From a virus: a stretch of DNA of 64,000 nt. The notes below the pieces were generated by a model, which saw only the letters and a list, made by a program, of their open reading frames with translations, did no database searches and had not been told where the DNA came from. The stretch is taken from IMG/VR virus record IMGVR_UViG_3300025941_000015, positions 41,627 to 105,626 of that record; one strand, 5' to 3'. The position numbers and the translations under genes are program-made. Within the stretch, counting starts at the first letter, position 1, and every line of letters starts with the position of its first letter. Of this stretch, positions 449 to 57,797 are shown one piece after another.

Positions 449-889
449 ATGGTGAAGCTGGGGTCTCAGTTCGACTACTACACAGCGGCAGAGGACAACC
501 CGTACCTGGAGGAGCACCTCGACGCCGTCACCACCCTGGCCCACGGCACTCACGAGGATCCATGGGCGGAGAACGCCTACGGCGAAGAGCTTCCGGCGAC
601 GCGCACACACGTCGACCCGTGGCACGTCAACGCCATGGGTGGGCACACCATGCAGCGGATCGACCGTGCCAGGGAGGGCTACCGAAGCAACCCTGAGAAG
701 ATCCCGCCAGTCGTGTTGGTGCAGCGAGGTACGTGGGATCAGGATGACCCGAGGGCAGGCCACCCCAAGTACGAGGTGGCTGACGGACACCACCGGACGA
801 AGGCCGCCCGAGCCAACGGGATGTCCGCTCTCCACGCCATCGTGGTGAAGAGCCCCCACGACTACGAGCTGGAGCTGCCGTCGTACTGA
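449..889 (+). CDS. ParB/Srx-fold nuclease-like protein, 146 aa
   Basis: The C-terminal half (about residues 86-125) has the ParB N-terminal-domain signature: a hydrophobic strand with PPVVLV, then DGHHR at 112-116, then a helix ending in a glycine. ParB-fold proteins of this kind bind nucleotides or DNA and some act as nucleases. The N-terminal part begins with a GSQFDYY segment that faintly resembles the N-termini of two later virion-region proteins (50671, 51621). Its place among late genes suggests a virion-associated or packaged enzyme, which is inference. Confidence 0.65.
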   Translation: MVKLGSQFDYYTAAEDNPYLEEHLDAVTTLAHGTHEDPWAENAYGEELPATRTHVDPWHVNAMGGHTMQRIDRAREGYRSNPEKIPPVVLVQRGTWDQDDPRAGHPKYEVADGHHRTKAARANGMSALHAIVVKSPHDYELELPSY

Positions 890-16580: not shown

Positions 16581-16585
16581 TCGCG

Positions 16586-16597
16586 TACGCTGGAGCC
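16586..16597 (+). promoter_or_regulatory. Leaderless -10 promoter for 16598-17365
   Basis: TACGCT (16586-16591), six bases, ATG 16598. There is no AACRNCGTT palindrome; the -35 zone is occupied by the hairpin. Confidence 0.55.
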
Positions 16598-39223: not shown

Positions 39224-39251
39224 CCCACCTCTTCGTACAACAGGAGTGATC

Positions 39252-41165
39252 ATGGCGACCCAGAAGGCGGCTGCGGCTGCGATCAACAAGAAGAAGCCTG
39301 TGAAGAAGCCGACGACGGTGAAGGAAGGGTTCAAGAAGCCCAAGCCCCAGCCTGACATGAGCACTCAGACGCAAGCTGAGCGCGACTACGCCTCTGGTGC
39401 GCGTCTCGACCCGCCCCAACTCCACGAGATGTCGCAGACGAGCGCCGACGTGGTCCGTGCGGGCTTCACCGAGTCGATGTCGAACTGGAAGACCCGTGAG
39501 CAGACCATGCGGGACGAGCTGACCCCGAAGGGGAAGGTGAAGTCGTCAGCTCTCAAGCAGACCACGATCGACCGGCTCGACGATCGCACGGTGGACGTCC
39601 CTGCCGCTGGCCACAACATGGCTCAGGCGTGGGACCGCATGATGGACGCCCCGGACAAGCCCGCTCCGGCGTGGTACTTCGGGCACCACCGTCGCCTCAA
39701 GAGGGTCGCAGACCAGTACGGGCTCGACGCTGACACCGTCATGAGCGCCTCGGCTGGCATGTCGCCGCAGAACGGCCCGGACAACGAGTTCGACGCCGTC
39801 TCCTCTATGGCCGACGCCCACGTCAACAAGCGCCGTATCAAGGCCATCAACGACGTCTGGACGACCCCTTCCGAAGATGAGAAGAAGAAGGGCATCCAGC
39901 CCCGCCTGGTGATGAAGAAGGGTGAGGTTCGTCAGCTCAACAAGATGTCCGGTGAGGACATGCAGGCCGCCACGAGCACAGCCATGGCGAAGAACGTCAA
40001 GGTTGCCAGGGGCTTCAGGCTGGAGGGCTTCCGCAACGCCGGTACCAACCGTCAGGGTGGGTTCAGGACGATCACCGACCCGGACTACAACGCCGTTGCC
40101 GAGATGGGGACCGCCAAGGTTCCCCTCTACGACAAGGCCATCCGCATGTCGACGCCGGACTCGCCGCTGCATCACGAGTACGAGGCGCGCTTCACCGACC
40201 AGACAGCGGCCCGCAAGGTCCGCCTCGACAAAGAGGCAGACGCCAGCGCCAACCGGCAGGGGTCCGAGACGATCCGGGGCACGGGCGACCGCGTCGACCT
40301 GTACGGCCTCATGGGCAAGGGTGCGGAGGCGCACGACGCCGACCCGATCCACGACCACCCCATCCTCGGCAAGCGTGGCATCGCTGTACCCGACACGTGG
40401 GTCGCTGGCATCCTCTCCGGCCAGGACATGACCGACGCTGCAGAGCCCGAAGGGATGTCGGCCTCTCCGGCCAAGATCGCTGGCTCGCAGACGCGCACCA
40501 CGTCCTCCAATGTGCCCGGCACGACCTTCCCCGGTCCGGCCGCAGCGAAGGCCGCTGGGGGCAAGAAGCTCACCGGCAACGCTGCGTGGGGCATGGCGGC
40601 CGTCGAGGCCATCCAGGGAGCGGCCACAGAGGCTCGCGAGGCCGGTTCGCAGACCAGCATCCCGCCCGTGATGATGCAGGAGATGACGTGGACCCACGAG
40701 CGCTCGGAGGTGGCCAAGTCCACACTGCGAGCTGCTGCATCAGGCTTGCTGAAGAAGCACTTGGTCGGCGCCCGTGTGGCGAAGCTGACGAGCGGTGGCC
40801 TGCAGGGTGAGAAGGAGTTCCGCCCCGAGCAGGGGCCTCCTGCGCCCAGTAGGAAGGTCGAGACGCCCGGACTGTTCAGCCGTGGGTACGAGGGCAACTC
40901 GCTCGACACAGACCAGATGAGGGTCGTCCCCGGCGCTGGAGGCCCTGGCTCCACCAGGGGCCGCAACGCCGCCATGGACTCCTTCCACGAGCGCGCTTCA
41001 GGTCCGGCTCCCTCCGAACTCGCCAAGCGGGCAGCGATCCACGCTGCGCTCGGCGTGCACGGTGAAGAGCGTGCCGCCCGTGGCATCACCGCTCCGAACG
41101 ACGGAGGCGCTGCCTACGGCGGACCAGGGCCCCGCCCCTTGCGCAACCTCCGGGGTCCGAGCTGA
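39252..41165 (+). CDS. Large internal virion-type protein, 637 aa
   Basis: Starts at ATG 39252 behind AGGAG. Very Lys-rich first 35 residues; residues about 125-200 include WYFGHHRRLKRVADQYG and SASAGMSPQNGPDNE, a helical module like those in actinophage proteins of unknown role that resemble helix-hairpin DNA glycosylase folds. The remainder is Ala/Gly/Thr-rich and low complexity, with RGITAP and PGPRP at the end. Probably packaged or minor capsid protein. Confidence 0.6.
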   Translation: MATQKAAAAAINKKKPVKKPTTVKEGFKKPKPQPDMSTQTQAERDYASGARLDPPQLHEMSQTSADVVRAGFTESMSNWKTREQTMRDELTPKGKVKSSALKQTTIDRLDDRTVDVPAAGHNMAQAWDRMMDAPDKPAPAWYFGHHRRLKRVADQYGLDADTVMSASAGMSPQNGPDNEFDAVSSMADAHVNKRRIKAINDVWTTPSEDEKKKGIQPRLVMKKGEVRQLNKMSGEDMQAATSTAMAKNVKVARGFRLEGFRNAGTNRQGGFRTITDPDYNAVAEMGTAKVPLYDKAIRMSTPDSPLHHEYEARFTDQTAARKVRLDKEADASANRQGSETIRGTGDRVDLYGLMGKGAEAHDADPIHDHPILGKRGIAVPDTWVAGILSGQDMTDAAEPEGMSASPAKIAGSQTRTTSSNVPGTTFPGPAAAKAAGGKKLTGNAAWGMAAVEAIQGAATEAREAGSQTSIPPVMMQEMTWTHERSEVAKSTLRAAASGLLKKHLVGARVAKLTSGGLQGEKEFRPEQGPPAPSRKVETPGLFSRGYEGNSLDTDQMRVVPGAGGPGSTRGRNAAMDSFHERASGPAPSELAKRAAIHAALGVHGEERAARGITAPNDGGAAYGGPGPRPLRNLRGPS

Positions 41166-42761: not shown

Positions 42762-45700
42762 ATGGCTACCTACGTCGGGGCAGGAACACCAGGCACCACT
42801 ACGGCAGGAACACCTGCCGGTGTTGCCGTTGGCGACTACGTAGGCGTCTTCGCCTACCGCAACGCTGGTACCGCCCCGACCCTCCCGGCAGGGTGGACGC
42901 TCTGCATCAGCAACAACACCAACCCCGCCAGCGTCGCAGCGTTCCGCGAGTGGGACGGCGTCTGGACGATGGCGTCGGCGGTGTTCACCAACGCCAACAG
43001 GTGTGTCTCCTTCGCCGTGCGCGCTGCATCGGGCAAAGAGATAGCGATCGGCTACGCCGACGACACGGCGCGCAACAACTCCAATGTCGTGTGGCCGACA
43101 ATGGCGCTGCACGTCACGGATGGCTCGTCGGTCATCATCCGCGGTGTAGCGCACACCCGGCCCGACTCCACGATCCCGACGCCGACCAACCACACGCTGA
43201 TCGACTCGAACGGCACGCAGCCCGGCTACGGCACGTACCGCAAGAACTCCTCGACCGACGGCAACACCGTCACGGTGACGATCAGCCGCTCGACCACAAT
43301 GACCTTGCCGCAGGTCGAGTACAAGGACGTGATCCCGGTTGCTGTCACGCAGGCGGCGTACCAGTGGTTCAGCGAGGGAACCGAGAGCGGGGCGGCGGCG
43401 CTGGCATCACAGGACACCAAGTACGTCGGCAACATCGCCACTGACGACGTCGAGGTCGGGCTGCGGATACGGCTCCAGAACGCTGGTGGTGGCGCACCCA
43501 CACTGGCGACCGACGACTGGCAGCTTCAGGTCGCGAAGAACGGTGGAGCGTGGTCGAACGTTACGGTCGGGGCTTCGATCGTTTACGCCGAGACGAATGT
43601 CAGTGTTGACTCGATCATGCTCCCAAGTTCTGGCGCCAATGCTCTGGGTCAGTCGTTCCAGGGCAACGGTGGTCTGCTGTGGCGATTCGGTGCCTGGATG
43701 CACAAAGGTAGTCAGATCTCTGACACCGTCGTTGCCACCCTGTACTCCCACACGGGAACGTTCGGCTCGACGGGGGTTCCTGGGACGGTGCTGGCCACTT
43801 CAGCACCGTTGTCTGTCAGTGACATACCTAGCTCCTATGGCTGGGTGTACTTCACCTTCGATCAGACGTTCACACTGACGAACGGCACCCCGTACTTCAT
43901 CGGTGTGTCATGCACCGACGGTCCCGTTTACTGGGGGTTTGATAACACCGCTTCTACAGCTCCAGGCAACGCTGCATCTCGTTCTGGAACAACTTGGTCC
44001 CTGGATTCCACTGGGGACTACGTTTACCAAGTCTTCACTGGCTCGTCCGCTCCCGTTATCGGGTATGCCTGCCCCAACACCGTTGATGGTGGAGCGACGA
44101 CCAACCGGCTGACCGGCGGCTCCGGCACGTTCGTTGCGGGCAAGGTGTCCGAGGACGGCTTGGTCGACGACCTCGGCTGGTCGGGTAACAACTACACCGA
44201 AGTGCTCTACGAATTGGTGGCCTTGAAGGCCAATCTCGCCAGCCAGGACATCTTGACCTTCCGCGTCCTCCGCAACGGTGGTACGTCGGACATGACGTAC
44301 GAGGCGTTGATATCCGGCTACGACGAGACCAACGCTGCTGCGGGGGGAACGTCGGTTAGCCCCGGCCAGAGGGGGGCGCAGTCTTTCCTTGGTGACGGTA
44401 GGAACCTGACGAAAGCCGGGTTCTACCTCAAGAAGTTCGGTGCTCCTACCGGCAATATGGTGGCGGAGTTGTTCGCCCACACTGGCACGTTCGGGTCGAA
44501 TGGTGTGCCGACCGGAACGGCGTTGGCGACATCTGCACCAATCGACATGTCCACGCTTTCAACTGCGTATGGCTGGTTTGACTTCACGTTTACTCCACCC
44601 GTTCCGTTGACGAATGGAACTCCTTACTTCATTGCCTTCAGTAACATCGGCACTGGCGACGGTGGCAACGCCCCGATCTTCGGCCAAGACTCGACTTCCC
44701 CGACTGCCCCTGGAAACGCTGCGTCGTACTTCTCAGGTAGTTGGAGCGGTACTCCACCAGCATACGAAGTGGTCTACCGGGTCAAGACGGAGGCCACCCC
44801 GACCTTGGAGATCACGGTCGGATCTGTCCAGCGTGAAGCGACGATCTCAACGCTGTTCACGTTCACCGCTACCGCCGTTGTCCACATGGACGTACAGGCG
44901 GCGATCTCATCGACGTTCACGTTCACCGCCACGGCGATAGCCGGTCCTCCGATCGCTCAGTTGTTCTTCGGTGGACCGTTCGCCAACCCTCCCATCTCTG
45001 CTGGTCTCCACAGGGCGACCAACAGCGCCAAGCTGAACGGGCAGGCGTTGGGATGGATACCGATTGGCGCTTCTCCGTACCGAACAACAACAGGTTCGCA
45101 GGCAACGCTTCAACCAAGCTCTGTCGCCGGTCCGACCAATGGCATTGAGGTGATCCAATCAGGTAACCCGGTGGAATGGATCTCCCCTCCCCTCGACAGG
45201 AACGTGACGATCTCGGGAACGATCTCAGCGCAACTGTGGGACAGCTCCTCCGCAGGAACCAACGCTGCCATCAACGTGATCGTCGAACGTCTCGACAGCA
45301 AGATGCTCGTCGTCTCAACGGTAGGTCGATCCAACAACACAGTTGCGGCTGATGTCAGCACTAAGCGGAACATGTCCTTCACGCCGACCAGCACGAACAT
45401 GCTCAAGGGTGATCGGTTCCGTATTCGTGCCTTCTTCGATGATGCACCGACGATGGCTGTCGGAGGCGGCACGATGTCGTTCCTCGTGGGAGCGTTGGTC
45501 GAGGACGCCGTTGGCGACTGTTGGATCAAGTTCACAGAGTTGTTCTCGTTCCAATCGACTACGCCAGCCGGAACCGTTCTCTACCTCACCGATACCCAGA
45601 GCGACATGGACGCCGGGGTCAAGGCCGAGAAGGTGATGTGGACCGACCGGGGAACGGTGTCTACCTCTGGCACCTACACCATCCCCGCCACAGCCTGGGC

Positions 45701-48700
45701 CGTACCAGCTCAGTTCGTCAACGTGGGTGCTCTTGAGTGGTACTCCAAGCCTCTCGCCGGGTTCACGCTGGACGGGCTCGTCGAGCTGAACATGCGTATC
45801 TCCGGTACGGGGTCGCTGGACTTTGGTGTGAGGGCCGAACTCGACATTGTCGACCAACAGAACTTCCTGATGACCAACTGGGCCGCAGGAAGCATGATCA
45901 ACAGCACTGCGCCAATAGGTGTCGTGGTTGCGGGGTCGGACAACCTGGGTGGCAACCCGATCACACAGACGCAATGGAAGTCGTGGCTGTCCGGTCCTAC
46001 CTTCGTGGTCGATCCGCAATGGCGGATTCGCCTCAGGATGTACGTCTCCAACCAGGCCCAACAGCAGCAGTTCACCGGCACGACCGCCTCCCTTCACTAC
46101 AACGGGCCCACTCCGGGTGCGAGCGGTGATGCGTGGATTCAACTCCCTCAGGCCATCAGTGAGTTCTCCACGGGCCCGGCGACTCGTGAGGCGACGATCG
46201 CCACAACGTTCTTGTTCACAGGGACCGCAGCGGCTGTCAGGACGCTCCCGGCCACCATCGCCGCCTCCTACACCTTCACGGCGACGGCTACAGCGGGGCC
46301 CTTGCCGACGCTGGGCAATGCGACCGCCGCCCACGTGTGGAACATCTCCCCGATCCAGGGCAGGCGGCCGATGGGCGGTCTGGCCACGTCCGCACACCTG
46401 TGGACGATCAGCCCCCTGACCAGCAAGAAGATCATGAAGGGGCAGGCGACCTCTGCCCACCTGTGGACGCTCGCGGTCACCAGCAAGCGCATCATGAAGA
46501 GCCAGGTGACCGCAGCCCATCTGTGGAATGTCGCCCCGGCAACAGGCACCGCACCAGTCCTCCCGGTCAAGCAGGGGTCCGCCACCGCCTCGTGGACAGC
46601 GACGCTGACGGCAACTGGCAAGAAGATCCAGAAGGGCACAGCCACTACCTCCTGGCGGGCGGTAGTTGGCTACTTCGTCGAAGACGAGTTCAACGGTGCT
46701 GTAGACACCACGCTCTCCTCGCTGGGGTACTTGACCATGTACGGCGGCACGCTCTACCTCGACGGCAGCGGCAGCGCCTACACGAAGGGAGGCTTGGGAG
46801 GCAACACCAACCCCAACGCTGTTCCTAACAACTCGTGGATGGAGACCACCTTCCGGCTCGACGACACATCCAGCTACAGCATCAGCCTGCTGTTCAGGCT
46901 GCCGACGGCATCGGCAGCCAACGGTGTTGACACCGGGTACGCCGTCACGATCACCGAGCTGGGCATCGGTGTCAACCGCCTCGGTGCGAGCAAGTCGAGC
47001 GTTGCACAGACGCTGGTGAACACCAAGGACTACGTCATACGGGCCGACTGGGTGGGGGCCAACATCACGGTCACCCTGGACGGCACTGGGATCATCAACT
47101 GGACCGACCCCGCCCCGCTCGTCGGCACCTACATCGGGCTCTACCTCGACAACAACTATGGCGGAACGTCCGACCGTCTTCGGTACCTTCGTGCAGGCAC
47201 TGCTGCCGTCGGCAAGACCCCGATCACAGCGCCGGGCGCAGGGTCGGCCACAGCGACACACACGTGGAACGTCACCCCGGCTCAGGGCAAGAGGATCACC
47301 AAGACCGCTCAGGTCACCGCTGCTCATCTGTGGACGATCGCTCCTGCCACGGGCAAGAAGATCCCCGTAACGCTCCAGGTCACTGCGACGCACCTCTGGA
47401 CGATCGCACCTGCAACGGGTGTGATGCCGGTCCTGGGGGTGAAGCAGGGCACCTCTGTTGCATCGTGGACAGCGACCGTTGCGCCCGCCACCGGCAAGCG
47501 CATCACCAAGACGACGTCCATGGCGGCCGCTCACGTCTGGACGGTGGCTCCGTCGACCGGCAAGAAGATCATGAAGGCGCTGGCGGCAGCCGCCGCCCAC
47601 ACCTGGACGATCGGCCCGGTCACAGGTAAGCGCATCATGAAGAGCGCCATCACGGCGGCTCACCTTTGGACGATCGCTCCGACCACCGGCAGGCGCGTCA
47701 CCTACGGCCAGGCAACAGCGACCCATCTCTGGAACACCTTCCCAGCCTCCGGCATCTTCCCCATCGTCGGAGTGAAGCAGGGCACTGCCCTTGCCCGACA
47801 CGACTGGACGACCTCCCCGGCCACCGGTAAGAAGTTCCCGCAGTCCCAGGTCACCGCCGCACACACGTGGACGATCGCACCGTCCACCGGTCAGAAGATC
47901 ATGCGGGGCCAGGCCACCGCTGCGCACACCTGGACGGTCTCCCCGTCCACCGGCAAGCGCATCATGAAGAGCGCCATCACGGCGGCCCACCTCTGGAACC
48001 CTGTTGCCACCGGCAAGCGCATCATGCGCGCCGCCGCAACGGCTGCACATCTGTGGAACACCTTCCCGTCGACCGGCGTCATGCCCATCCTCGGGCTGAA
48101 GCAAGGCACAGCGGCCGCCCGACACGACTGGTCGACGACAGCCACCGGCAAGAAGGTGATGAGCGGCAGTGCCACTGCGGCCCACGTCTGGACGTTGGTC
48201 GTCACCAGCAAGCGGTTCATGAAGGGGGCCGCCACCGCTGCCCACGTCTGGAACGTCTCGCCGAGCACCGGCTCGAAGCCGCTGCGTGGCCAGACCACGG
48301 CGGCCCACCTCTGGACCCTCACCGCTCAGGGCATCAGGCCCGTCATCGGTGCCAAGCAGGGATCGGCGATCGCCTCCCACACATGGACCGTCGCTCCCAT
48401 CACGGGCAAGCGCATCATGCGTGGTCCGGCGACGGCCGCTGCACACGTCTGGACGGCGAGCCCTGTCACTGGCAAGAAGATCATGCGGGGAGTGGCGGCG
48501 ACGTCCACACACCTGTGGGTTGTCGGCCCGGCCACCGGCAAGAAGATCATGGGCGGCAGCGCTGCTGTCACTCATCTGTGGTCGGTCAGTCCCTCGACGG
48601 GCCGCAGGCAGACGGTCGGTCTGGCGACAGCCGTCCACGTCTGGCGTCCGACGGCGGAAGGCTTCCGGTTCACCAGAGGCACCGCAGTTGTCTTCTTCAA

Positions 48701-48833
48701 GTTCAAGCCCGACATCGCCAGAGGCTCACCAGGCGTCGTCGGCGTCGTCCAGGGGATCTGGGACGGCTACCCCGTTGTGGCGATGCAGTACGGCGACAAG
48801 CCGATCTTCGAGATCCTGATGGTCGAGGCATAG
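42762..48833 (+). CDS. Giant repetitive fibre/adhesin, 2023 aa
   Basis: ATG 42762. The N-terminal Ig-like region is followed by two copies of a lectin-like module (about residues 280-395 and 530-640; both have SF(Q/L)G(N/D)G, HTGTFGS and LTNGTPYFI), Thr-rich TFTFTATA linkers, beta domains, then about 28 short repeats centred on AAHLWT with TGKKIMKG (from about residue 1183), interrupted by a LamG-like domain (about 1305-1483). Almost certainly a host-binding virion protein. The C-terminal 40 residues are unique. Confidence 0.85.
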   Translation: MATYVGAGTPGTTTAGTPAGVAVGDYVGVFAYRNAGTAPTLPAGWTLCISNNTNPASVAAFREWDGVWTMASAVFTNANRCVSFAVRAASGKEIAIGYADDTARNNSNVVWPTMALHVTDGSSVIIRGVAHTRPDSTIPTPTNHTLIDSNGTQPGYGTYRKNSSTDGNTVTVTISRSTTMTLPQVEYKDVIPVAVTQAAYQWFSEGTESGAAALASQDTKYVGNIATDDVEVGLRIRLQNAGGGAPTLATDDWQLQVAKNGGAWSNVTVGASIVYAETNVSVDSIMLPSSGANALGQSFQGNGGLLWRFGAWMHKGSQISDTVVATLYSHTGTFGSTGVPGTVLATSAPLSVSDIPSSYGWVYFTFDQTFTLTNGTPYFIGVSCTDGPVYWGFDNTASTAPGNAASRSGTTWSLDSTGDYVYQVFTGSSAPVIGYACPNTVDGGATTNRLTGGSGTFVAGKVSEDGLVDDLGWSGNNYTEVLYELVALKANLASQDILTFRVLRNGGTSDMTYEALISGYDETNAAAGGTSVSPGQRGAQSFLGDGRNLTKAGFYLKKFGAPTGNMVAELFAHTGTFGSNGVPTGTALATSAPIDMSTLSTAYGWFDFTFTPPVPLTNGTPYFIAFSNIGTGDGGNAPIFGQDSTSPTAPGNAASYFSGSWSGTPPAYEVVYRVKTEATPTLEITVGSVQREATISTLFTFTATAVVHMDVQAAISSTFTFTATAIAGPPIAQLFFGGPFANPPISAGLHRATNSAKLNGQALGWIPIGASPYRTTTGSQATLQPSSVAGPTNGIEVIQSGNPVEWISPPLDRNVTISGTISAQLWDSSSAGTNAAINVIVERLDSKMLVVSTVGRSNNTVAADVSTKRNMSFTPTSTNMLKGDRFRIRAFFDDAPTMAVGGGTMSFLVGALVEDAVGDCWIKFTELFSFQSTTPAGTVLYLTDTQSDMDAGVKAEKVMWTDRGTVSTSGTYTIPATAWAVPAQFVNVGALEWYSKPLAGFTLDGLVELNMRISGTGSLDFGVRAELDIVDQQNFLMTNWAAGSMINSTAPIGVVVAGSDNLGGNPITQTQWKSWLSGPTFVVDPQWRIRLRMYVSNQAQQQQFTGTTASLHYNGPTPGASGDAWIQLPQAISEFSTGPATREATIATTFLFTGTAAAVRTLPATIAASYTFTATATAGPLPTLGNATAAHVWNISPIQGRRPMGGLATSAHLWTISPLTSKKIMKGQATSAHLWTLAVTSKRIMKSQVTAAHLWNVAPATGTAPVLPVKQGSATASWTATLTATGKKIQKGTATTSWRAVVGYFVEDEFNGAVDTTLSSLGYLTMYGGTLYLDGSGSAYTKGGLGGNTNPNAVPNNSWMETTFRLDDTSSYSISLLFRLPTASAANGVDTGYAVTITELGIGVNRLGASKSSVAQTLVNTKDYVIRADWVGANITVTLDGTGIINWTDPAPLVGTYIGLYLDNNYGGTSDRLRYLRAGTAAVGKTPITAPGAGSATATHTWNVTPAQGKRITKTAQVTAAHLWTIAPATGKKIPVTLQVTATHLWTIAPATGVMPVLGVKQGTSVASWTATVAPATGKRITKTTSMAAAHVWTVAPSTGKKIMKALAAAAAHTWTIGPVTGKRIMKSAITAAHLWTIAPTTGRRVTYGQATATHLWNTFPASGIFPIVGVKQGTALARHDWTTSPATGKKFPQSQVTAAHTWTIAPSTGQKIMRGQATAAHTWTVSPSTGKRIMKSAITAAHLWNPVATGKRIMRAAATAAHLWNTFPSTGVMPILGLKQGTAAARHDWSTTATGKKVMSGSATAAHVWTLVVTSKRFMKGAATAAHVWNVSPSTGSKPLRGQTTAAHLWTLTAQGIRPVIGAKQGSAIASHTWTVAPITGKRIMRGPATAAAHVWTASPVTGKKIMRGVAATSTHLWVVGPATGKKIMGGSAAVTHLWSVSPSTGRRQTVGLATAVHVWRPTAEGFRFTRGTAVVFFKFKPDIARGSPGVVGVVQGIWDGYPVVAMQYGDKPIFEILMVEA
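46310..48700 (+). repeat. Array of about 28 coding repeats of about 22 codons
   Basis: Units read ATAAHLWT-xxPxTGKKIM(K/R)G with variation; five of them end in a longer VMPVLGVKQGT-type linker followed by ASW or ARHDW units, giving a higher-order period. A LamG-like domain (about 46673-47215) splits the array. DNA identity between units is high enough for recombination. Confidence 0.85.
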
Positions 48834-48864: not shown

Positions 48865-48876
48865 TACTCTGTGGAA
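48865..48876 (+). promoter_or_regulatory. Leaderless -10 promoter for 48877-49719
   Basis: TACTCT (48865-48870), six bases (GTGGAA), GTG 48877. The upstream in-frame GTG 48871 abuts the -10. Confidence 0.5.
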
Positions 48877-49719
48877 GTGGCAACCATCGAGAGCGTCATG
48901 GCGGGAGCCCGCAAGTACATGCGGGACTTCCCCCGGTACTTCACCGCCTCGGTGGGTGTCGTTGGCACCCCCAGGCTCCTCAAGCTCCCGCACCCCAACG
49001 TGGTGCCGCAGGAGCTGTCCGTGGAGGCCATCGGCCCGACGTCGTACTGCACGGGGCTGCTGGCGTTGACGGGCGTCTCGTCGGCTGAAGGTGTGTTCGT
49101 CTACACGCTCGACGTGCGCGAGGGCCTCATCAAGATCCTGAACCCGCCCACCAACGGGTGGGGCGACGCCACGAACTTCAACATGGACGGCTACTACTTC
49201 CCGTGGGTCAGCCCTGGCGACATGCAGTTCTACGCCGAGGTGCTCATCACCGAGCACGGCACTCAGCGGCCCGAGTTCGATCTCGACGAGGTGTCAGACG
49301 CCGAGGAAGACCTCATGCAGCTCGGTACGGCCATCGAGGCGTGCTGGGCCCTGCTGTTCCAGTACTCGCGGGACATCGACGTCAGCACCCCTGAGGCGAT
49401 CGGTCTGCCCCTTACACAGCGCTTCCGGCAGCTCGAAGACCTCCTCATGCACCTGAGCGAGAAGTACAAGACCAAGGCCAACATGCTCGGCGTCGGTCTG
49501 GAGCGCGTCACGGTCGGCATGCTGCGGCGCACGAGCTACACCACCAACCGTCTCGTGCCGGTGTACCAGCCTCGCGAGTGGGACGACGGCTCGCCGCCGA
49601 AGCGGCTCTTCCCGCCCATCGATCAGAACGCACCGTCGACACCTCCACCCGGCTTCCAACCTGCGGCCGTGGTCACGGGCTACTACGAGGAGATCCACGC
49701 CTACACCGGAGAAGGCTGA
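48877..49719 (+). CDS. Hypothetical structural protein, 280 aa
   Basis: Start placed at GTG 48877 by the promoter. Alpha/beta first 130 residues, helical middle (about 145-215), Pro-rich C-terminal tail. Located between fibre and connector-type genes; probably a neck or baseplate-related protein, but no motif confirms this. Confidence 0.65.
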   Translation: MATIESVMAGARKYMRDFPRYFTASVGVVGTPRLLKLPHPNVVPQELSVEAIGPTSYCTGLLALTGVSSAEGVFVYTLDVREGLIKILNPPTNGWGDATNFNMDGYYFPWVSPGDMQFYAEVLITEHGTQRPEFDLDEVSDAEEDLMQLGTAIEACWALLFQYSRDIDVSTPEAIGLPLTQRFRQLEDLLMHLSEKYKTKANMLGVGLERVTVGMLRRTSYTTNRLVPVYQPREWDDGSPPKRLFPPIDQNAPSTPPPGFQPAAVVTGYYEEIHAYTGEG

Positions 49720-50228
49720 TGGTGAGCTTCAACGATGTCGAGTTCGGGTCGTTCGGCGATCACCGGGACCAGTACCGCGGCACGGACCAGCCGTACGTGC
49801 GCCAGGAGATGTACCAGCCGAAGGGCAGCAAGAACCGCTTCGCTCTGACCGAGAGCAACGGCAACGTCACGGCGCATCGGATCGGCAAGCCCGACTCCGT
49901 CCTACCCGGTGGTCGACCGGCCAAGCAGCTCGCTGGTGCCATCTCGGTGTGGGGTGGTGGCACCGGCTCGCCGGAGGGTCACAAGGAGATCCTGCGGGCC
50001 GATGTGCGGGAGGGCTTCCGCGGCACGGGTCTGAGCAGGGCGATGCTGCAGATGGTGGCCGACCGTCACCCCGATGTCTCTCATAGCCCGGCGCTCACGC
50101 CGCAGGGCGCCCGCTTCGCCGCCCGCAACCCGCTCCCCGGCGACACCGAGGCCACGAAGGCGACGCAGAAGCGCAGCATCACCGCTGACGTCGCCACCAC
50201 ACTGCTCGGCGGGCCGAGGAGGGTCTGA
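49719..50228 (+). CDS. GNAT-like acetyltransferase, 169 aa
   Basis: ATG 49719 overlaps the upstream TGA. The segment AISVWGGG, EILRADVREGFRGTGLSRAML (about 85-110) has the GNAT motif A pattern (Arg-x-x-Gly-x-Gly/Thr-x-Gly) that binds acetyl-CoA pyrophosphate, and DVSHSPALTPQGARFAARN fits motif B. It is the first of five small enzyme-fold genes before the portal. Confidence 0.65.
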   Translation: MVSFNDVEFGSFGDHRDQYRGTDQPYVRQEMYQPKGSKNRFALTESNGNVTAHRIGKPDSVLPGGRPAKQLAGAISVWGGGTGSPEGHKEILRADVREGFRGTGLSRAMLQMVADRHPDVSHSPALTPQGARFAARNPLPGDTEATKATQKRSITADVATTLLGGPRRV

Positions 50229-50668
50229 TGCCTGCCAGCGACCACGTGAACCGGACGGAGTTCACCACCATCTTCCACCCGGCGAACCCGAAGGAGATGG
50301 GGGGCCTCTCCTCACACACACTGGAGGCGTGGTCTCCCGAGCACGCTGACACGCCGTGGGCGAGGGAGCACCCCAGCTCTCGCGTGACCTGGGTCGGGAC
50401 CGACGTCGACCCTGGCATCAAGCCGATCGCCTCGATGGGATGGCACCACAAGACCGGTGAGATCAGGGGCGTCTTCACACAGGAAGAGCACCAGCGTCAG
50501 GGCATCGCCTCGGCACTGTTCCATGAGGGCAGCTCGATCCCCGGCACCCCGACCCCCAAGCACTCCCCAGACCGGACACGAGCCGGTGACGCATGGGCGA
50601 GGGCCGTCGGAGGGCGGGTTCCGCGTCATACCCGAGGTGACAACCCGTACCCACCGAGGGAGACGTAG
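50228..50668 (+). CDS. GNAT-like acetyltransferase, 146 aa
   Basis: ATG 50228 overlaps the previous stop. VFTQEEHQRQGIASALF has the acetyl-CoA loop with RQGIA at 90-94, preceded by a beta-strand pair (PIASMGWHHKTGEIRG). The first eight residues (MPASDHVN) recur at the start of the ART-like protein at 53744. Substrate unknown. Confidence 0.7.
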   Translation: MPASDHVNRTEFTTIFHPANPKEMGGLSSHTLEAWSPEHADTPWAREHPSSRVTWVGTDVDPGIKPIASMGWHHKTGEIRGVFTQEEHQRQGIASALFHEGSSIPGTPTPKHSPDRTRAGDAWARAVGGRVPRHTRGDNPYPPRET

Positions 50669-50670
50669 TC

Positions 50671-51621
50671 ATGGTTCGTGTATCTGATCTCGGCCCACAG
50701 TGGAGTGACTCCTTCGGGCCCGAGCCGGTCGTGGCGAAGGCCACAATGGATGTGAACAGCGGTCGCACCCCGAAGCAGGCCAACGTGTGGCGTGGTGAGA
50801 CGAGGAAGATCTACCCGACCCCCGAGTACCCCGACCCGGCCAAGGCGTCGCGGGAAGACCCTGCTGGTCTGATCGAGCACTGGACTTCGGGGAGCCACCC
50901 CTACCCAGCCGACTCGGGCTACGGGACGTACAGAACCAACGACAAGGGAGAGAGCGTCTTCGGACCGGTCAACGAGGTGACCAGTGGTGTTCACTGGACG
51001 GAGTCGCCGCAGTCCATCCCCGAACGGTTCACCGAGAGCACCTTCAAGGCTCTTCAGCACGGCACGAAGATGAGTGCCAACGAGGCGCGGATGATCAAGG
51101 AGGACGAGCGGATAGACGCTCTCACCTTCGGGCCCGACCGCAAGCCCTGGAGGGACGAATGGACACCGGAGGAAACGGCTCTGGAGACGAAGGTGGAGCG
51201 GCGCAAGAACCAAGGGAAGCAGCCCTTTCGAGATCTCGGCCACCGTGCGGAGATGGGTGGAGGTTCAACGGAGCCGTACAACATGGGTGTGATCTGGCAC
51301 GGCAAGATCGACGCCCGTCACATCGATCACAACAACCCGACGACGGACTTCGAGGACGAGGTGAACCTTCGGATGGACTCGAACGCTCCGCCCGTTCCGG
51401 TCCACGCCATGCAGATCAACGTCCCTGAATCAGGATCCCAGGGGTTCCCTGAGGCGGGAGTGACGCACGACATCGTCCGCCGGGCAGGGAAGAGTGGCGC
51501 GGATGCCGATCCCTACCAGGCGGTGCTACCTCACTCCCTGGTCCCTTGGAGCACGGTGCAGTTCCCCCCTGGCCAGGAGAAGCAGATCCCCATTCGGGAT
51601 GGCAGGCGGTCGAACCTCTGA
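50671..51621 (+). CDS. Hypothetical enzyme-like protein, possibly ART-fold, 316 aa
   Basis: Residues about 6-50 (GPQWSDSFGPEPVVA, VNSGRTP, RKIY) match the N-terminus of the next gene. The rest has WRGE, GVHWTESPQSIPERF and a late IPIRDGR, a spacing reminiscent of R-S-E type ADP-ribosyltransferases, but an EXE motif is not clear. Treat the fold as a guess. Confidence 0.55.
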   Translation: MVRVSDLGPQWSDSFGPEPVVAKATMDVNSGRTPKQANVWRGETRKIYPTPEYPDPAKASREDPAGLIEHWTSGSHPYPADSGYGTYRTNDKGESVFGPVNEVTSGVHWTESPQSIPERFTESTFKALQHGTKMSANEARMIKEDERIDALTFGPDRKPWRDEWTPEETALETKVERRKNQGKQPFRDLGHRAEMGGGSTEPYNMGVIWHGKIDARHIDHNNPTTDFEDEVNLRMDSNAPPVPVHAMQINVPESGSQGFPEAGVTHDIVRRAGKSGADADPYQAVLPHSLVPWSTVQFPPGQEKQIPIRDGRRSNL

Positions 51622-52124
51622 TGGTCGCGCTCGGTGCTCAGTTCAACGACTCCTTCGGAGCGGAGCCGGTCCGCTCCAACGCGATCGCCGCCATCAACAC
51701 CGGGCGTGATCCTCGACGGCCCGGTGGCGTTCTCACCAGGGATGCGGTCAAGACGATCTATCGAGCCACCAACATCCGATCGTGGCCCCTGAAGGATCAC
51801 CCCGAGTACGAGGGGAACGACTACAAGGGCACCCCGTCGCCAGGGTTCCCCGACACCAACACGATGGACTCCGTCCGCCACGACGAGCCTCTGCACACCA
51901 GCCAGGCTCACCTCCACGGGCCGACGTTGGAGCGGTACATGCACGAGGGTGCACCGGAGACGGAGTTCGTCAACGGTGAGGAGGACTGGGAGGTGCCGTA
52001 CTCTCCCGACGTGACAGAGGATCGCCACGGCAACACCTGGATCAACGAGGGCCACCACCGGATGGTCGCTTCCCGTCTTCGCGGTGACTACAGCACCGAT
52101 GTGTACAAGGGATACCGAGACTGA
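51621..52124 (+). CDS. ParB/Srx-fold-like protein, 167 aa
   Basis: ATG overlaps the previous stop. N-terminal segment GAQFNDSFGAEPVRS, INTGRDP, KTIY is shared with 50671-51621. The C-terminal 30 residues have NTWINEGHHRMVASRLRG, a ParB-type motif with EGHHR at 143-147 (Glu in place of Asp). Possibly a virion-carried nuclease or modified ParB fold. Confidence 0.6.
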   Translation: MVALGAQFNDSFGAEPVRSNAIAAINTGRDPRRPGGVLTRDAVKTIYRATNIRSWPLKDHPEYEGNDYKGTPSPGFPDTNTMDSVRHDEPLHTSQAHLHGPTLERYMHEGAPETEFVNGEEDWEVPYSPDVTEDRHGNTWINEGHHRMVASRLRGDYSTDVYKGYRD

Positions 52125-53056
52125 TGGATCTGCGTCAGGAGGCCGAGCACATCTTCGGCAACGGGTTTGACTGGTACCAGAGCGAGCTGGGCGAGGTCGT
52201 GTTCTGGCACGAGTTCCTCTCGATGCAGTCGGCCTACAACGACACCTACGATGAAGGCGGCCGCCGCTACTCCGCCGGTCTCCTCGTGCCTGCGCTCTGG
52301 GTGATCGTCAACGAGGACCGGCATCGCCCCACCCCCGAGGGGCGCAAGCCGACGGAGAAGCTCACCTGCGCCATATCGGTGCGAGCGCTGCAGGACTCGG
52401 GCATCTCCGACCCGGAGGACTACACCCGGCGCCTCAACGATCTTGTGCGATACGACGATCGCCTCTGGAGGGTCACCGACTTCAACATCCGAGGTCGTGT
52501 GCCCGACTCCATCATCATCGGTGTGACCGCCACGCAGATCTTCCCCGACGAGGAGATGGCGTTCGACACGATGCCCGGTGGTGTGACTGCCCTTGGGGCC
52601 ACCCGCAGGTACGCCTACCCCAACGAGCGCAACGTACACACCTACGCCGACCACGAGCTGCCCGCCCCCAACGGGTCGGACATGCTCTCGTACCAGCTCT
52701 ACAAGGACTTTGACACCAACCCAGAGGATGACGGCGCTACAGCACCGGGCCCGTCACCGGGCCTCTTCTCCATCAACGTCATACCGGACACGGGGAACCC
52801 GTTCAGGTACTCCTTCACCGTGAACGACGACCCGACTCACAACGTTGATTGGGACTACGGAGACGGCTCCACCACCAACGATGTGCTCTGCTCCGAGACC
52901 ATGGTGCACACCTACGAGCAGGCCGGTGACTTCACCGTCACGGCGTACTGCCACAAGGAGACCGTCACCGCTGATGTCATCGTGGCACCGGGGACGGGAT
53001 ACGGCCTGGGCCAATACGGCATTGTTCAACCCTATGGAGGTTACGCCAGTGAGTGA
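52124..53056 (+). CDS. Virion protein with C-terminal PKD domain, 310 aa
   Basis: ATG overlaps the previous stop. The first 200 residues are an alpha/beta structural region of connector or neck type; residues about 215-300 are an immunoglobulin-like PKD domain (VDWDYGDGSTT, HTYEQAGDFTVTAY). Such domains often decorate capsids or tails. Confidence 0.7.
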   Translation: MDLRQEAEHIFGNGFDWYQSELGEVVFWHEFLSMQSAYNDTYDEGGRRYSAGLLVPALWVIVNEDRHRPTPEGRKPTEKLTCAISVRALQDSGISDPEDYTRRLNDLVRYDDRLWRVTDFNIRGRVPDSIIIGVTATQIFPDEEMAFDTMPGGVTALGATRRYAYPNERNVHTYADHELPAPNGSDMLSYQLYKDFDTNPEDDGATAPGPSPGLFSINVIPDTGNPFRYSFTVNDDPTHNVDWDYGDGSTTNDVLCSETMVHTYEQAGDFTVTAYCHKETVTADVIVAPGTGYGLGQYGIVQPYGGYASE

Positions 53057-53744
53057 TGTGACAATGCCGGTCATCGGCCAGGAGCCGTGGGGAGAGACCC
53101 TCAACACCTGCTTGGAGTACCTGTACGAGGAGATCGAGAGACTGTCCTCTCAGATCGCTACCCACACAACGCAGATCGCTGCCAACTCATCGCAGACGAC
53201 AACGAACACCTCTGAGATCGTCGCCCTCAAGAGTGAAGTCGCCGCCAACCAGACGGCCATCATCAACATGGGCAACGACGTGGGCGCCATGTTCGCCCGC
53301 CTCAATCAGCTTGAGGCTCAGGTCTCCAGCAACACCAATGGCCTCAACAGCCTTGGTACACGAGTCTCGGTGGTGGAGGACAGGCCCGACTTCGTCTTCG
53401 TCCAGACCTCCTACATGTTCTCTACTGCCTCTCCACCTGCTACCGGCAACCAGATCCGACTCGACAACGCCGACCCCAAGCTCGCCACGATCTTGGACGT
53501 CCGGCGGGTGGATGCGGACGGTGCCGACCGCAGTTACGGCCTCAGCCTGATAGACACCAAGTCACAGATCAGGCTCAACGTCTACAACGACGCATCCAAC
53601 TGGCACCGCTTCACAGTCATTGGCACGCCGACCAAGGCCGGTCCTGACAACTGGTATGTCCCGGTCGCTTGGCACTCTGGTGTAGGAACGCTGCCCGGCT
53701 CCAAGATCAACGTCGGTCTGTTCATCGATGTCCCGTACCTGTGA
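53049..53744 (+). CDS. Coiled-coil fibre protein, 231 aa
   Basis: Starts at GTG 53049, eight bases after GGAGG and overlapping the previous gene. Residues about 20-125 form heptad repeats with Asn/Thr at core positions (SSQIATHTTQIAANSS) like trimeric fibres (fibritin-type), followed by a beta C-terminal knob. Probably a head or neck fibre. Confidence 0.7.
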   Translation: MSDVTMPVIGQEPWGETLNTCLEYLYEEIERLSSQIATHTTQIAANSSQTTTNTSEIVALKSEVAANQTAIINMGNDVGAMFARLNQLEAQVSSNTNGLNSLGTRVSVVEDRPDFVFVQTSYMFSTASPPATGNQIRLDNADPKLATILDVRRVDADGADRSYGLSLIDTKSQIRLNVYNDASNWHRFTVIGTPTKAGPDNWYVPVAWHSGVGTLPGSKINVGLFIDVPYL

Positions 53745-54064
53745 TGCCTGCCACCGACCACCTCAACCCGTCGCTCTTCCACGGTACGACGCACCCGTTC
53801 AACGCTGGTGACACCATCGAACCGACCGACTCGGACTGGTCGTTCGAGGGCACGCCGATGGCGTTCGCCACTCCTGATCTCGGCAAGGCGCAGCAGATCA
53901 GTCGCACCAAGGCCAAGATGCACAACCGCAAGAACCCCGACGATCCGAGAGAGGCTCATGTCTTCGAGGTCGAGCACATGAGTGGTCCGGCCGACGTGTG
54001 GGGCCTGAAGCCTGAAGTCGCGGACACCGTCGGGTTCCGTGTGAAGCGTAGAGTCGAGGGCTAA
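53744..54064 (+). CDS. Mini ADP-ribosyltransferase-like protein, 106 aa
   Basis: LFHGTTHPFNAGDTIEP with HGTT at 13-16 and AFATPDLGKAQQ, then HVFEVEHMSGP, match the order of motifs in Arr-type (rifampin) ADP-ribosyltransferases: NAD-binding His, Tyr/Ala-Thr strand, Ala-rich helix and Glu/Val strand. It lies between fibre and portal genes, so it may be packaged. Catalytic activity is not certain. Confidence 0.65.
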   Translation: MPATDHLNPSLFHGTTHPFNAGDTIEPTDSDWSFEGTPMAFATPDLGKAQQISRTKAKMHNRKNPDDPREAHVFEVEHMSGPADVWGLKPEVADTVGFRVKRRVEG

Positions 54065-55749
54065 TGGCATTGTCGTTCTACCCTCCCTCGTACCGAGCGT
54101 CGCAATCCGACCTCACCATCTCGATCAGCCCGCTCGGTCTGGTCGAGTTGGCCGACGAGGAGTTCGAGGTTCACGGCGTCCGGCTCTCGCGCTACTCGCT
54201 GTACTGGGCCCACTACCTCGGCCACATGTACGCCTATCGGCGCGAGGTCGGCGAGCCGCAGTTCGCCGCCAACTACGTGCGGGCGCTGAGCGACTACATC
54301 ACCAACTTCACCTTCGGCAAGGGCATCACCTTCCGCACGCCACCGGCCACAGCGGCCATCATCCCATCACTCCTCAAGAGGGTGTGGGAGCAGGACAACC
54401 GCAAGGAAGCTGTGCTGTGGGAGATGGGCCAGACCGCTGGCGTCACGGGCGACTGCTTCGTGAAGGTGGCGTACGAGGATCCCTACGTCGACACGACGGG
54501 GCGCGTCCACCCCGGCCGTGTGCGCATCCTGCCGATGAACCCGGCCCACTGCTTCCCGCAGTGGCACGAGCACGACCGCCAGCGCATGCTGTCGTTCAAG
54601 CTCAAGTACCGCTTCTGGACGACGGCGGCCGACGGCACCCGCCAGGTCATGACCTACGTCGAGCGGATCTCCGAGACCGGCATCGAGGAGTTCGTGAACG
54701 ATGAGCTGATTGACTCGCGGCCCAACCCGCTCGGCGTCATCCCCATCGTGTACATCCCCAACAACCCCGTCTCAGGGTCACCCTGGGGCACGCCGGACAT
54801 CGCCGACGTTGTGGCCCTGAACCGCGAGTACAACGAGAAGGCGCTGGAGATCAGCGACATCATCAACTACCACTCGGCACCCATCACCGTCGTGACCGGC
54901 GCCAAGACCTCGCAGTTGGAGAAGGGCCCCCGCAAGACGTGGACCCTGCCCAAGGATGCTCGGGTGGAGAACCTCCAGTCGCTCGTCGACCTCTCCGGTC
55001 CGCTCGGCTACATGGACGTCATCAAGCGCGTCATGCACGAGATGACCGGCGTGCCTGAGCAGGCCCTCGGCCAGATGCAGCCGATCTCCAACACCAGCGG
55101 CGTGGCGCTCCACATCCAGTACCAGCCCCTGATGAACCGCTACAACATGAAGAAGCTCCAGTTCACCTCGGGCTTCCAGCGCATCAACGAGATCGTCCTG
55201 CTCACCCTCTTCCAGAAGGAGCCGTGGACGCTCCAGTTCGATGCCCGTGAGAGCGCCGCCCCGCCCGACGGGTCACTGCTCGTGCTCGACCCGGCTGACC
55301 CCAACACGTACGAGACGTCGGTCCACTGGCCACCCCCGTTGCCGGTCGACATCCTCGTCAAGCTGAACGAGATCATGGCCAAGATGAACCTCGGTCTGGA
55401 GTCCAAGCGGGGCGCTCTGCGCGAGCTGGGCGAGGAGTTCCCCGAGGAGAAGATGGCCGAGATCTTCGCTGAGCTGATCGAGGATCAGAAGGAAGCAGCA
55501 GCGTTGCAGCTCCGTCAGGCGGCCACATCGATGGCTGTCTTCCTGCTCACGGGCATGCCGCCAGATGGCCAAGGCCCGCCCGGCGAGGACAACGGCGCTA
55601 CTGTTACATCTGCTGGATCACCCAGCGATCAAGGAAGCACAGGGGCACCCGCTGCGGTGTCGCCAGAAGTGGCGAACATTGCACAACAACTGGTCGAAGA
55701 AGCCTACGGAACGAAGTTGGCTCAGTACCGGAATCCGTCGAACCAATAG
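54064..55749 (+). CDS. Portal protein, 561 aa
   Basis: The dodecameric channel at the capsid vertex. Long alpha-helical family with the typical stem segments; DIIN-HSAPI-TVV around residue 270 and PQWHEHDRQRMLSFKLKY fit actinophage portals, and it is followed at once by scaffold and capsid genes. A Gln/Ala/Gly/Thr-rich C-terminal tail (about 500-561) follows the core. Start at ATG 54064 in an overlap with the previous gene. Confidence 0.85.
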   Translation: MALSFYPPSYRASQSDLTISISPLGLVELADEEFEVHGVRLSRYSLYWAHYLGHMYAYRREVGEPQFAANYVRALSDYITNFTFGKGITFRTPPATAAIIPSLLKRVWEQDNRKEAVLWEMGQTAGVTGDCFVKVAYEDPYVDTTGRVHPGRVRILPMNPAHCFPQWHEHDRQRMLSFKLKYRFWTTAADGTRQVMTYVERISETGIEEFVNDELIDSRPNPLGVIPIVYIPNNPVSGSPWGTPDIADVVALNREYNEKALEISDIINYHSAPITVVTGAKTSQLEKGPRKTWTLPKDARVENLQSLVDLSGPLGYMDVIKRVMHEMTGVPEQALGQMQPISNTSGVALHIQYQPLMNRYNMKKLQFTSGFQRINEIVLLTLFQKEPWTLQFDARESAAPPDGSLLVLDPADPNTYETSVHWPPPLPVDILVKLNEIMAKMNLGLESKRGALRELGEEFPEEKMAEIFAELIEDQKEAAALQLRQAATSMAVFLLTGMPPDGQGPPGEDNGATVTSAGSPSDQGSTGAPAAVSPEVANIAQQLVEEAYGTKLAQYRNPSNQ

Positions 55750-55794: not shown

Positions 55795-56604
55795 ATGAGC
55801 AACGTTGATACAACCGTGTCTACAGGAGATGGCTTCATTGTGGGCGTCGAGCCCGCCGCCACTCCGGCAAGCCGTTTCGCACAGGGAACACAGGACACGG
55901 GTCCAGTCGTACAGCCCGCACCGCAGCAAGGTCAGACCAACGGGGAACGAACCTTCACCGAAGCACAGGTCGAAGAGTTCCGCAAGCAGGAGAAGGACAA
56001 GGTCTACCCTCGCATCGAGTCGATGGCGAAGGAACTGGAGGAGTTGAAGGCCGAGCGCGACGCAGCCCGCAAGGCAGCCGCAGACGCTCAGGCCGCAGCC
56101 GAGGCGGAAGCCAAGGCCAAGGCCGAAGAGGAGATGACCGTTCGTGACCTGCTCCGGCAGACTCAGGAGCAGTTCGAGCAACAGATCACCACGGTCCGTA
56201 CCGAGGCGGAGATCGCCAAGGCGGAGCTGGAACAGGAGCGTCGGCTCCAACAGCTTCGGGACTACCGTTCAGCAGCGTTGTCCGCCAACGCCGCATTGAT
56301 CCTCCCCGACATCGCCGACTACGTCGCCGGGGAGACACCCGAGCAGATCGACGCATCCATAGCGGATGCAATCGAGCGCTCCGAGCGAATCGCTCAGGGC
56401 GCAATGGCCGTTCGCCAGCAAGCAATCCAGGGGATGCAAGGAGTGCGCTCCACGTCCCCGACTGGCAACGGTCCTCTGGAGGAGCAACAGGAGCAGAAGA
56501 CGATCACGCCCGAGCAGATCCGGGCGATGTCACCATCGGAGTACGCCGCACACCGGGGCACCTTGCACGCCGCAGGGCGAGCGCAGTTCTACGGACAGCG
56601 TTGA
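55795..56604 (+). CDS. Scaffold-like protein, 269 aa
   Basis: Gln/Glu/Ala/Lys-rich. A coiled coil covers about residues 55-160, flanked by low-complexity ends, and the gene sits directly between portal and major capsid protein, the classic scaffold position. ATG 55795 follows GGGGAAAC. No separate head protease gene was found here. Confidence 0.8.
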   Translation: MSNVDTTVSTGDGFIVGVEPAATPASRFAQGTQDTGPVVQPAPQQGQTNGERTFTEAQVEEFRKQEKDKVYPRIESMAKELEELKAERDAARKAAADAQAAAEAEAKAKAEEEMTVRDLLRQTQEQFEQQITTVRTEAEIAKAELEQERRLQQLRDYRSAALSANAALILPDIADYVAGETPEQIDASIADAIERSERIAQGAMAVRQQAIQGMQGVRSTSPTGNGPLEEQQEQKTITPEQIRAMSPSEYAAHRGTLHAAGRAQFYGQR

Positions 56605-56660: not shown

Positions 56661-57797
56661 ATGCCAGACATTGCTGGTGGTATCAGCGGTTCAGGGAACC
56701 TGTACTCGGGGGTCAGCGGCGGGTCCAACCCCGCAGCCGTCCCCGTGGGTGGTGCGTTCCTTGGCGTCCAGGCGGCGCCCGCGCCGTCGGGCATCGTCAC
56801 CCAGGGTTACCCGCAGGGCACTGCGATCACAGGTTCATCCGCGTTGACCCCGGCCATCCAGGCCATCTGGTCGAAGGAGATCCTCTTCCAGGCCATGCCG
56901 ATTCTGCGCTTCGAGCAGTTCGCCGTGAAGAAGACCGAGCTGGGAGTCATGCCCGGCCTGACCGTGAACTTCCTCAAGTACAACAATCTGGACGTCAACG
57001 AGACGCTCGGAGCGGAACTCACCGAAGGTGTGCGCCTGACCACGTCGGCCCTCAGCGCCTTCCAGTTCCGCATCAGCGTTGCGGAGCAGGGCAAGGCCAT
57101 CGCCGTCTCGGAGCTGCTCCTGCACGCTTCGTTCGACGACATCATGGCGTCGGGCTCCCGTCTCCTTGGCCGTCACATGGCGGCCTCGATGGACTTCCAG
57201 GCCCGGAACACGCTGCTCAACTCTGCTGGCAACGTGGCGTTCGGCTACCGCAAGGCGGCCCCGTTCCAGGGTGCCTCGACGAACATCTACGATCCGGGCC
57301 TCGTGGCGGTCAACCAGGCAGCGGTCGACGCCGCCGACGGCACCGCAGCCAAGGAGGCGTACTTCCTCACCCCGCACTCGGTCAAGGATGCTGTCGAGCA
57401 GCTCGCCACGCTCAACATCCCCCGACTCGGTGAGACCTACGTCCACTTCATCCACCCGCACCAGTCGCGCCGCCTGCGTGACACGCCGGAGTGGATCGAA
57501 GTGACGAAGTACGCGGCCCCCGGCAACTTCATGCTTGGCGAGATCGGCCGCATCAACGATGTTGTGTTCATCGAGACCACGCAGGTCCGCAAGACCAACG
57601 TCGGTGCCGTCGGCTACGACACCTACGACTCGATCATGATCGGCGACAACGCCTTCGGTCATGCCGTGTCGCTCCCCGTGGAGCTGCGTGACGGCGGCGT
57701 TCTCGACTTCGGTCGTGAGCACGCCCTCGCCTGGTACGCCATCTGGGGCTTCGGCGCAATCACGCCGCAGGCGGTCTCGCTCGTCTCCACGAACTGA
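56661..57797 (+). CDS. Major capsid protein (N4-gp56-like, HK97 fold), 378 aa
   Basis: The shell subunit. It begins with a Gly/Ser/Pro-rich arm, then ALTPAIQAIWSKEILFQAMP, a long helix and beta region, and the HPHQSRRLRDTPEW and GEIGRINDVVFIET segments that mark N4-gp56-type major capsid proteins. ATG 56661 follows AGGAGG. Confidence 0.9.
   Translation: MPDIAGGISGSGNLYSGVSGGSNPAAVPVGGAFLGVQAAPAPSGIVTQGYPQGTAITGSSALTPAIQAIWSKEILFQAMPILRFEQFAVKKTELGVMPGLTVNFLKYNNLDVNETLGAELTEGVRLTTSALSAFQFRISVAEQGKAIAVSELLLHASFDDIMASGSRLLGRHMAASMDFQARNTLLNSAGNVAFGYRKAAPFQGASTNIYDPGLVAVNQAAVDAADGTAAKEAYFLTPHSVKDAVEQLATLNIPRLGETYVHFIHPHQSRRLRDTPEWIEVTKYAAPGNFMLGEIGRINDVVFIETTQVRKTNVGAVGYDTYDSIMIGDNAFGHAVSLPVELRDGGVLDFGREHALAWYAIWGFGAITPQAVSLVSTN

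Follow-up and report, generated by a model that had tools for sequence, protein, structure and literature searches.

How proteins are chosen for packing into a virus particle and for injection is understood in molecular detail in few models, above all for the capsid-targeting sequence of phage T4. The T4 internal proteins form a highly diverse set that has only this sequence in common (PMC3012670; PMC7697877). The domains of polyvalent proteins (Iyer et al. 2017, PMC5512222), whose coding sequences lie close to terminase-portal genes, are predicted to be injected, and the products of ADP-ribosyltransferase (ART) genes near myophage head genes are predicted to be packaged (PMC9503650). The effectors of extracellular contractile injection systems (eCIS) have N-terminal loading signals without a conserved sequence (PMC11297309). 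Here, we describe a cassette of small enzyme genes beside the portal gene in the window, i.e. the whole 64 kb stretch analysed (positions 41,627 to 105,626) of the 105,626-base record IMGVR_UViG_3300025941_000015, from a soil-type bacterial virus. Its genes, named below by their first nucleotide in the window, encode swappable small enzymes with a common short tag, which the virus particle probably takes up and carries into the host.

The tag is a real peptide, conserved at the amino-acid level, separable from the fold and common to about 17 unrelated body families. To describe it, the window was compared with 16 related records comprising 1239 genes, where genes outside the window were predicted with a home-made codon-usage caller. 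The first-pass annotation had pointed to a shared tag before swapped enzyme domains in two genes, and the pattern proved wider than that: in the 16 records, which come from uncultured viruses related to BRock and similar Streptomyces myophages, 45 distinct proteins are headed by the tag. Its core is [LIV][N/S/G]x(x)Q[F/W/L], and its canonical form is M-A-A-S-D/E-H-L-N-P-D-Q-L/F. Without their first 14 residues the 45 proteins fall into 21 blastp clusters, or 17 after a profile search unites the Arr-like ones, and the body families include Arr-like ART, GNAT, ParB-like, papain-like and zincin.

A 12-position profile of the tag gives 8 bits or more, the threshold used, to 55 of the 1239 genes (16 records) and to none of the 1239 after shuffling; Fisher p-values computed over the records are overstated, as two pairs of records, G005/G008 and G010/G012, are near duplicates. 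When each family is left out in turn, 41 of the 45 members outscore every other gene, and for the remaining four the only genes that score higher are two identical ones starting MASSEHLSQQF, where the tag is one residue shorter. Positions 2-12 carry 0.9-3.8 bits of information, and later positions no more than 1.2 bits. Leu7 and Ser4 are each encoded by six codons across genomes ranging from 45% to 66% GC, and since synonymous codons vary freely the conservation is of protein, not of DNA.

The tag occurs in two related types, the common HLNxxQF (type I) and the LGxQ[FW] (type II) of genes 50671 and 51621. The starts MAAHEHLGVQF and MPASDHLGPQL are hybrids that join them, and other cassette proteins of near relatives start MPASDHLN, MAATDHLS and similar. 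Zincin-like proteins of 422-546 residues in the relatives mostly start MPxLGxQFxNTY, with LG.Q invariant alongside HExGH, and six papain-like proteins retain the tag together with invariant C, H and D. In some ParB-like members QLxMF or QLxLF stands beside the tag, in possible resemblance to a sliding-clamp motif.

The zincin-like proteins (L081 in G009, 10538-13588, - strand; L084 in G012, 16041-17330, - strand; L071 in G003, 13249-14646, + strand; L042, 9017-10285, - strand) combine HExGH ... EGxADxxxDR and the N-terminal LGxQ tag with a conserved PxG.LF, mostly PQGMLF, which resembles a sliding-clamp-binding peptide. A second short motif, approximately xLPG[M/L/Y], recurs near the C-termini of several cluster proteins (G012 38620, G009 70538 and 71948, G004 79179, G015 62413).

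In the one good model, that of the mini Arr-like protein 53744, the tag is predicted to lie outside the enzyme fold, as residues 1-6 have a predicted local distance difference test (pLDDT) score below 50 and the first strand consists of residues 11-15. The position of the motif is also free. In seven ART-like proteins the N-terminus is untagged and the motif lies close to the C-terminal end instead, as RHLGPQFSNN, KHLGVQFKEF, KHLNTQQF, YISTQQF and others. The C-terminal RHLGPQFSNN is comparable to MPLGPQFSNTY at the N-terminus of a zincin, and one open reading frame (ORF) of 123 residues terminates in SHLSEQFGD. Inside the clusters 52 of 112 genes contain the motif (2.1 expected after shuffling) versus 31 of 753 outside, with cluster limits that were drawn with the tags in view. 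Such freedom of position fits a docking peptide and not a translation leader. Given the codon variation, the boundary at residue 12, the disordered tag and the C-terminal copies, we consider it unlikely that the tag is a part of the fold, a DNA repeat or a set of leader codons. The idea that it mimics the scaffold was also dropped, as no scaffold segment is among the best internal motif matches.

The N-termini of 50671 and 51621, where a shared 45-residue stretch had been proposed, match with a local score of 82 over 44 aligned columns, while 2000 shuffles average 22 and never exceed 43. The bodies of the two proteins are unrelated (score 34, p=0.49), and the 5' ends of the genes are alike in DNA as well. 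The similarity is therefore shared far beyond chance, as proposed; however, the 45-residue match is private to these two genes, and the generally conserved unit is the motif of about 6-12 residues. A third type II start in the same genome is MVKLGSQF, at the beginning of the protein encoded at 449-889.

The enzyme-fold cassette inside the structural operon was recovered in full: all the genes lie between V282 (48871-49719) and the portal start at 54064, as seven + strand genes in one operon, Table 1. The tagged genes of the window overlap or abut the preceding stop codon.

Table 1. Genes of the cassette, its flanks and the additional tagged gene of the window, with window coordinates.
Feature	Coordinates	Strand	Remarks
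ParB-like protein, 146 aa, outside the cassette	449..889	+	type II tag LGSQF, nt 458-472
V282	48871..49719	+	conserved virion-region gene, left flank of insertion; homologue of Alone3 gp84
GN1, GNAT-like, 169 aa	49719..50228	+	degenerate tag MVSFNDVEFGSFGD
GN2, GNAT, 146 aa	50228..50668	+	type I tag MPASDHVNRTEF, nt 50228-50263, 23.5 bits
ART-like (motif only), 316 aa	50671..51621	+	type II tag LGPQW, nt 50689-50703
ParB-like (GHHR box), 167 aa	51621..52124	+	type II tag LGAQF, nt 51630-51644
Neck-type protein with C-terminal PKD domain	52124..53056	+	untagged; right flank of enzyme insertion
Coiled-coil fibre-like protein, GTG start	53049..53744	+	untagged; relative of Alone3 gp88
Mini Arr-like ADP-ribosyltransferase, 106 aa	53744..54064	+	type I tag MPATDHLNPSLF, nt 53744-53779
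Portal protein	54064..55749	+	PF05133 87 bits; phrog_64 3.5e-41
Scaffold-type protein	55795..56604	+	context gene
Major capsid protein	56661..57797	+	phrog_1357

The Arr fold proposed for 53744 is borne out by an AlphaFold2 model built from 16 relatives (pLDDT 77.9), for which the three best PDB matches in Foldseek are all Arr (2hw2 with E=9e-4, probability 1.00). In L037_5393, a relative that is also tagged, Pfam Arr-ms scores above its cut-off and starts at residue 11. In 53744, H13 is kept in all aligned relatives and the aromatic F41 is F, Y or W in most, and the Asp of the His-Tyr-Asp triad is without a clear equivalent in the shortened C-terminal part.

The GNAT, ParB and PKD assignments are strong to moderate, and all three had been made by the first-pass annotation. 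GN2 reaches 21.4 bits for Acetyltransf_1, above the cut-off of 20.7, and has the acetyl-CoA motif A QRQGIA. GN1, at 13.2 bits, is under this cut-off and is called GNAT-like from a GNAT-like RGTGL motif and its relatives, which keep the canonical tag (MPAHEHVSFGQFGD in L011 and MPAGDHVSFGQFGD in L036). The PKD domain of 52124 (PKD_4, 30.4 bits, cut-off 27) is a C-terminal add-on to a neck-type protein that resembles Alone3 gp85 and has residues 1-160 conserved in the relatives. In 51621 and its relatives the GHHR box is near-invariant, and a profile made from them ranks ParB, KorB and SbnI first in the PDB, every match being weak; the AlphaFold2 model is poor (pLDDT 51). The protein ends shortly after the GHHR box and is without the helix-turn-helix or C-terminal dimer domain of a true ParB, and it is not classed here as a partition ParB.

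For 50671 a possible ART fold had been suggested. ART-like motifs are present, i.e. the putative WRG ... GVHWT ... EDEV spotted by eye; Pfam and PHROG searches gave no match for it and no relative of its body is present among the loci compared, and the ART fold is putative. The MAFFT alignment of 50671 with the other ART-like tagged proteins was too poor for modelling, so structure predictions were made for 51621 and 53744.

Enzymes turn over fast at a fixed site. By its portal, capsid and neck genes the window matches a lineage whose closest isolates in culture are the Streptomyces myophages BRock, Alone3, LuckySocke, GiJojo and pSt2308, which have portals 54-55% identical to that of the window; these cultured relatives encode a tail sheath. 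In Alone3 and pSt2308 the homologue of V282 directly neighbours that of the neck gene, and in the window 2.4 kb of enzymes lie between the two. The locus L007 is very close to the window (portal 98% and V282 99.6% identical), and it has a ParB-like gene and a 192-residue ORF in place of 50671 and 51621, two ParB-like genes at the slot of the Arr-like gene, and a neck-type protein without the PKD domain. In L011 and L012 an Arr-like gene sits between V282 and the neck gene. An ORF in L006 (601-930, + strand), between mini-Arr and portal, resembles a LAGLIDADG homing endonuclease, a possible agent of turnover at the cargo locus.

In the low-GC relatives the tagged clusters adjoin tail-fibre or other virion structural genes, and tagged genes, the V282 homologue and zincins share a TATAAT/TAAACT -10-like box 3-9 nucleotides before the start codon. 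Boxes of the form TATAAT, TATACT or TAAACT at this distance occur in about 5-12% of the genes of G003, G004, G009, G010 and G012, where they precede head/neck, zincin and tagged genes and are likely leaderless late promoters. The same capsid family is present in 11 of the 16 records and the same portal family in 9 of the 14 searched, and the five records that lack a capsid gene have 14-58 genes in common with the others.

Elsewhere in the window, right after the terminase gene, 37524-37964 (+ strand) is 2H phosphoesterase-like, with 24.1 bits for the 2'-5' RNA ligase superfamily (cut-off 27), and its product could act on immune signalling nucleotides. The + strand gene at 38447-39037 keeps the first 30-37 residues (MPYNPxSAYPR...) of its counterparts in L010 (4556-5320) and L012 (2889-3644), and the remainder differs. 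The gene at 39246-41165 (+ strand) encodes a conserved lineage-specific protein of 639 residues that fits no family clearly and has a weak DUF7178 match, directly upstream of the portal in L010-L012. The fibre-like protein at 42762-48833 (+ strand; 2023 residues) has many tandem repeats of the ATAAHLWTIAPATGKKI type, and the antisense ORF that mirrors its gene at 45315-48638 (- strand) is probably spurious.

A DNA pattern of the tag followed by FHGT gave 12 stretches among 2.9 million viral contigs and a tag-only pattern five; these stretches carry runs of small ORFs with like beginnings and different bodies. Scans of the viral contigs with the single proteins 50671 and 51621 found only one near-identical contig. 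Against 50,697 phages, megablast with 19.6 kb of the window gave no match, tblastn with the enzymes of the cassette and with tagged proteins related to them (ART, ParB-like, Arr-like, papain-like, zincin-like) gave nothing meaningful, and a tag-plus-ParB peptide had one match only, at E=4. One exact tag pattern had no match in 84,980 bacterial and archaeal genomes, and a literature search found no described tag of this sequence.

We read the cassette as a polymorphic cargo locus in which a docking peptide recruits late-made enzymes to the virion, and give this reading a probability of about 0.52. Small single-domain enzymes (GNAT, Arr-like ART, a second ART-like protein, ParB-like) would be expressed late along with the virion genes, each of them, or its relatives, bearing the docking peptide, usually within the first 12 residues. 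The peptide would bind a component of the assembling virion, i.e. scaffold, portal or neck, or the capsid interior. The packed enzymes would then enter the host together with the DNA and, as infection begins, might modify macromolecules of the host or of defence systems. We infer packaging because of the virion-gene operon, the shared promoters, the fibre neighbours, the domain repertoire of injected proteins and the T4 precedent. More tentatively, and at a little under even odds, the position-flexible motif [H/Y][LIV][N/S/G]x(x)Q[F/W/L] may be a cargo-loading code, such that any protein gaining it would be recruited to the virion and injected, and effector sets would be interchangeable.

Several observations weigh against packaging. 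No protein of this lineage has yet been seen in a virion. The tagged cluster is about 30-40 kb from the portal in G004, G009 and G012, and in the window the gene at 449-889 is tagged yet far from the cassette. There is no tagged gene in Alone3 (about 102 of 116 kb scanned) and no tagged gene cluster around the portal in the three further isolates examined, so the partner of the motif could be lineage-specific. Finally, no S78 prohead protease match was obtained in 5 genomes, which leaves a T4-style removal of the tag without support; the search for an S77 protease was silent in its controls too and is uninformative.

Some of these points suit the main rival, in which the motif docks a partner within the infected cell, such as a phage-encoded hub, the replisome, the host polymerase or a membrane factor, and the enzymes act in late infection, in superinfection exclusion, host take-over or defence. 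A short motif flexible in position and clusters far from the head genes in the three genomes named would be expected from it, as would the putative clamp-like peptide beside the tag in some ParB-like members. It accounts less well for the position of the high-GC cassettes within the head/neck operon, the fibre-gene neighbours, the promoter in common with a head/neck gene and a domain repertoire that matches predicted injected proteins, and we consider it unlikely. The enzymes could also be ordinary morons, i.e. unrelated accessory enzymes in late operons whose N-terminal similarity is a common ancestral fold segment. Phages do commonly have accessory ART, GNAT and ParB genes close to structural ones (PMC5512222, PMC9503650), but 21 unrelated body clusters after residue 14, conservation that stops at residue 12 and a tag that is disordered in the mini-Arr model make this improbable.

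Two further explanations take the peptide itself to be functionless or secondary. Gene shuffling, where recombination retains the 5' end with its start codon and ribosome site, agrees with the similar 5' DNA of 50671 and 51621 and with the clearly mosaic cassettes; it has little to say about residues that are kept while their codons are fully diversified over the 45-66% GC range, nor about the motif recurring at the C-terminus of other proteins, and we regard it as very improbable. That the first codons are conserved for translation or for the mRNA, through leaderless transcripts in the low-GC members, is the least probable of all. The -10-like box 3-9 nucleotides before the start of many low-GC tagged genes would agree with it, but synonymous codons vary freely, the motif is found at C-termini too, and the tagged genes of the window, which overlap the upstream stop codon or abut it, need no leaderless start.

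A sharp motif over about 17 families makes the question of packing directly testable in another lineage, and provides a search key for injected effectors without a recognisable fold. If the virion reading is true, the clusters offer a ready-made inventory of enzymes for taking over the host early and countering its defences. Head-packaged ARTs and GNATs are a known idea; the tag, as far as the searches above reach, appears to be new. The closest likeness is to T4 (IPI-IPIII, Alt), where a short N-terminal peptide of about 10 residues is found on diverse, rapidly varying myophage proteins, one of which is an ADP-ribosyltransferase (PMC3012670, PMC7697877). In contrast to T4, the tag of the window is unrelated in sequence and phage lineage, the motif can be C-terminal, no prohead protease or cleavage site was found for it, the cargoes are ART, GNAT, ParB-like, papain-like and zincin proteins, and the virion location is a prediction.

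Compared with Borockvirus-type Streptomyces myophages, the window has the same portal-scaffold-capsid gene order, but these phages have no enzyme cassette between the homologues of gp84 and gp85. The fold of 53744 is that of Arr (PF12120; PDB 2hw2), although the protein is shorter (106 residues), tagged and phage-encoded. In eCIS, N-terminal peptides direct a variety of effectors into a contractile particle (PMC11297309), whereas the tag described here is a sharply defined sequence motif and the container would be a phage head filled with DNA. With polyvalent proteins the cassette shares the domain stock (ART, GNAT, ParB-like, metallopeptidase) and the virion-gene context; however, these have 2-15 domains per chain, whereas here separate ORFs of 106-316 residues are linked only by a short motif. 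If packaging holds, such sets of single-domain effectors would amount to a polyvalent protein taken apart.

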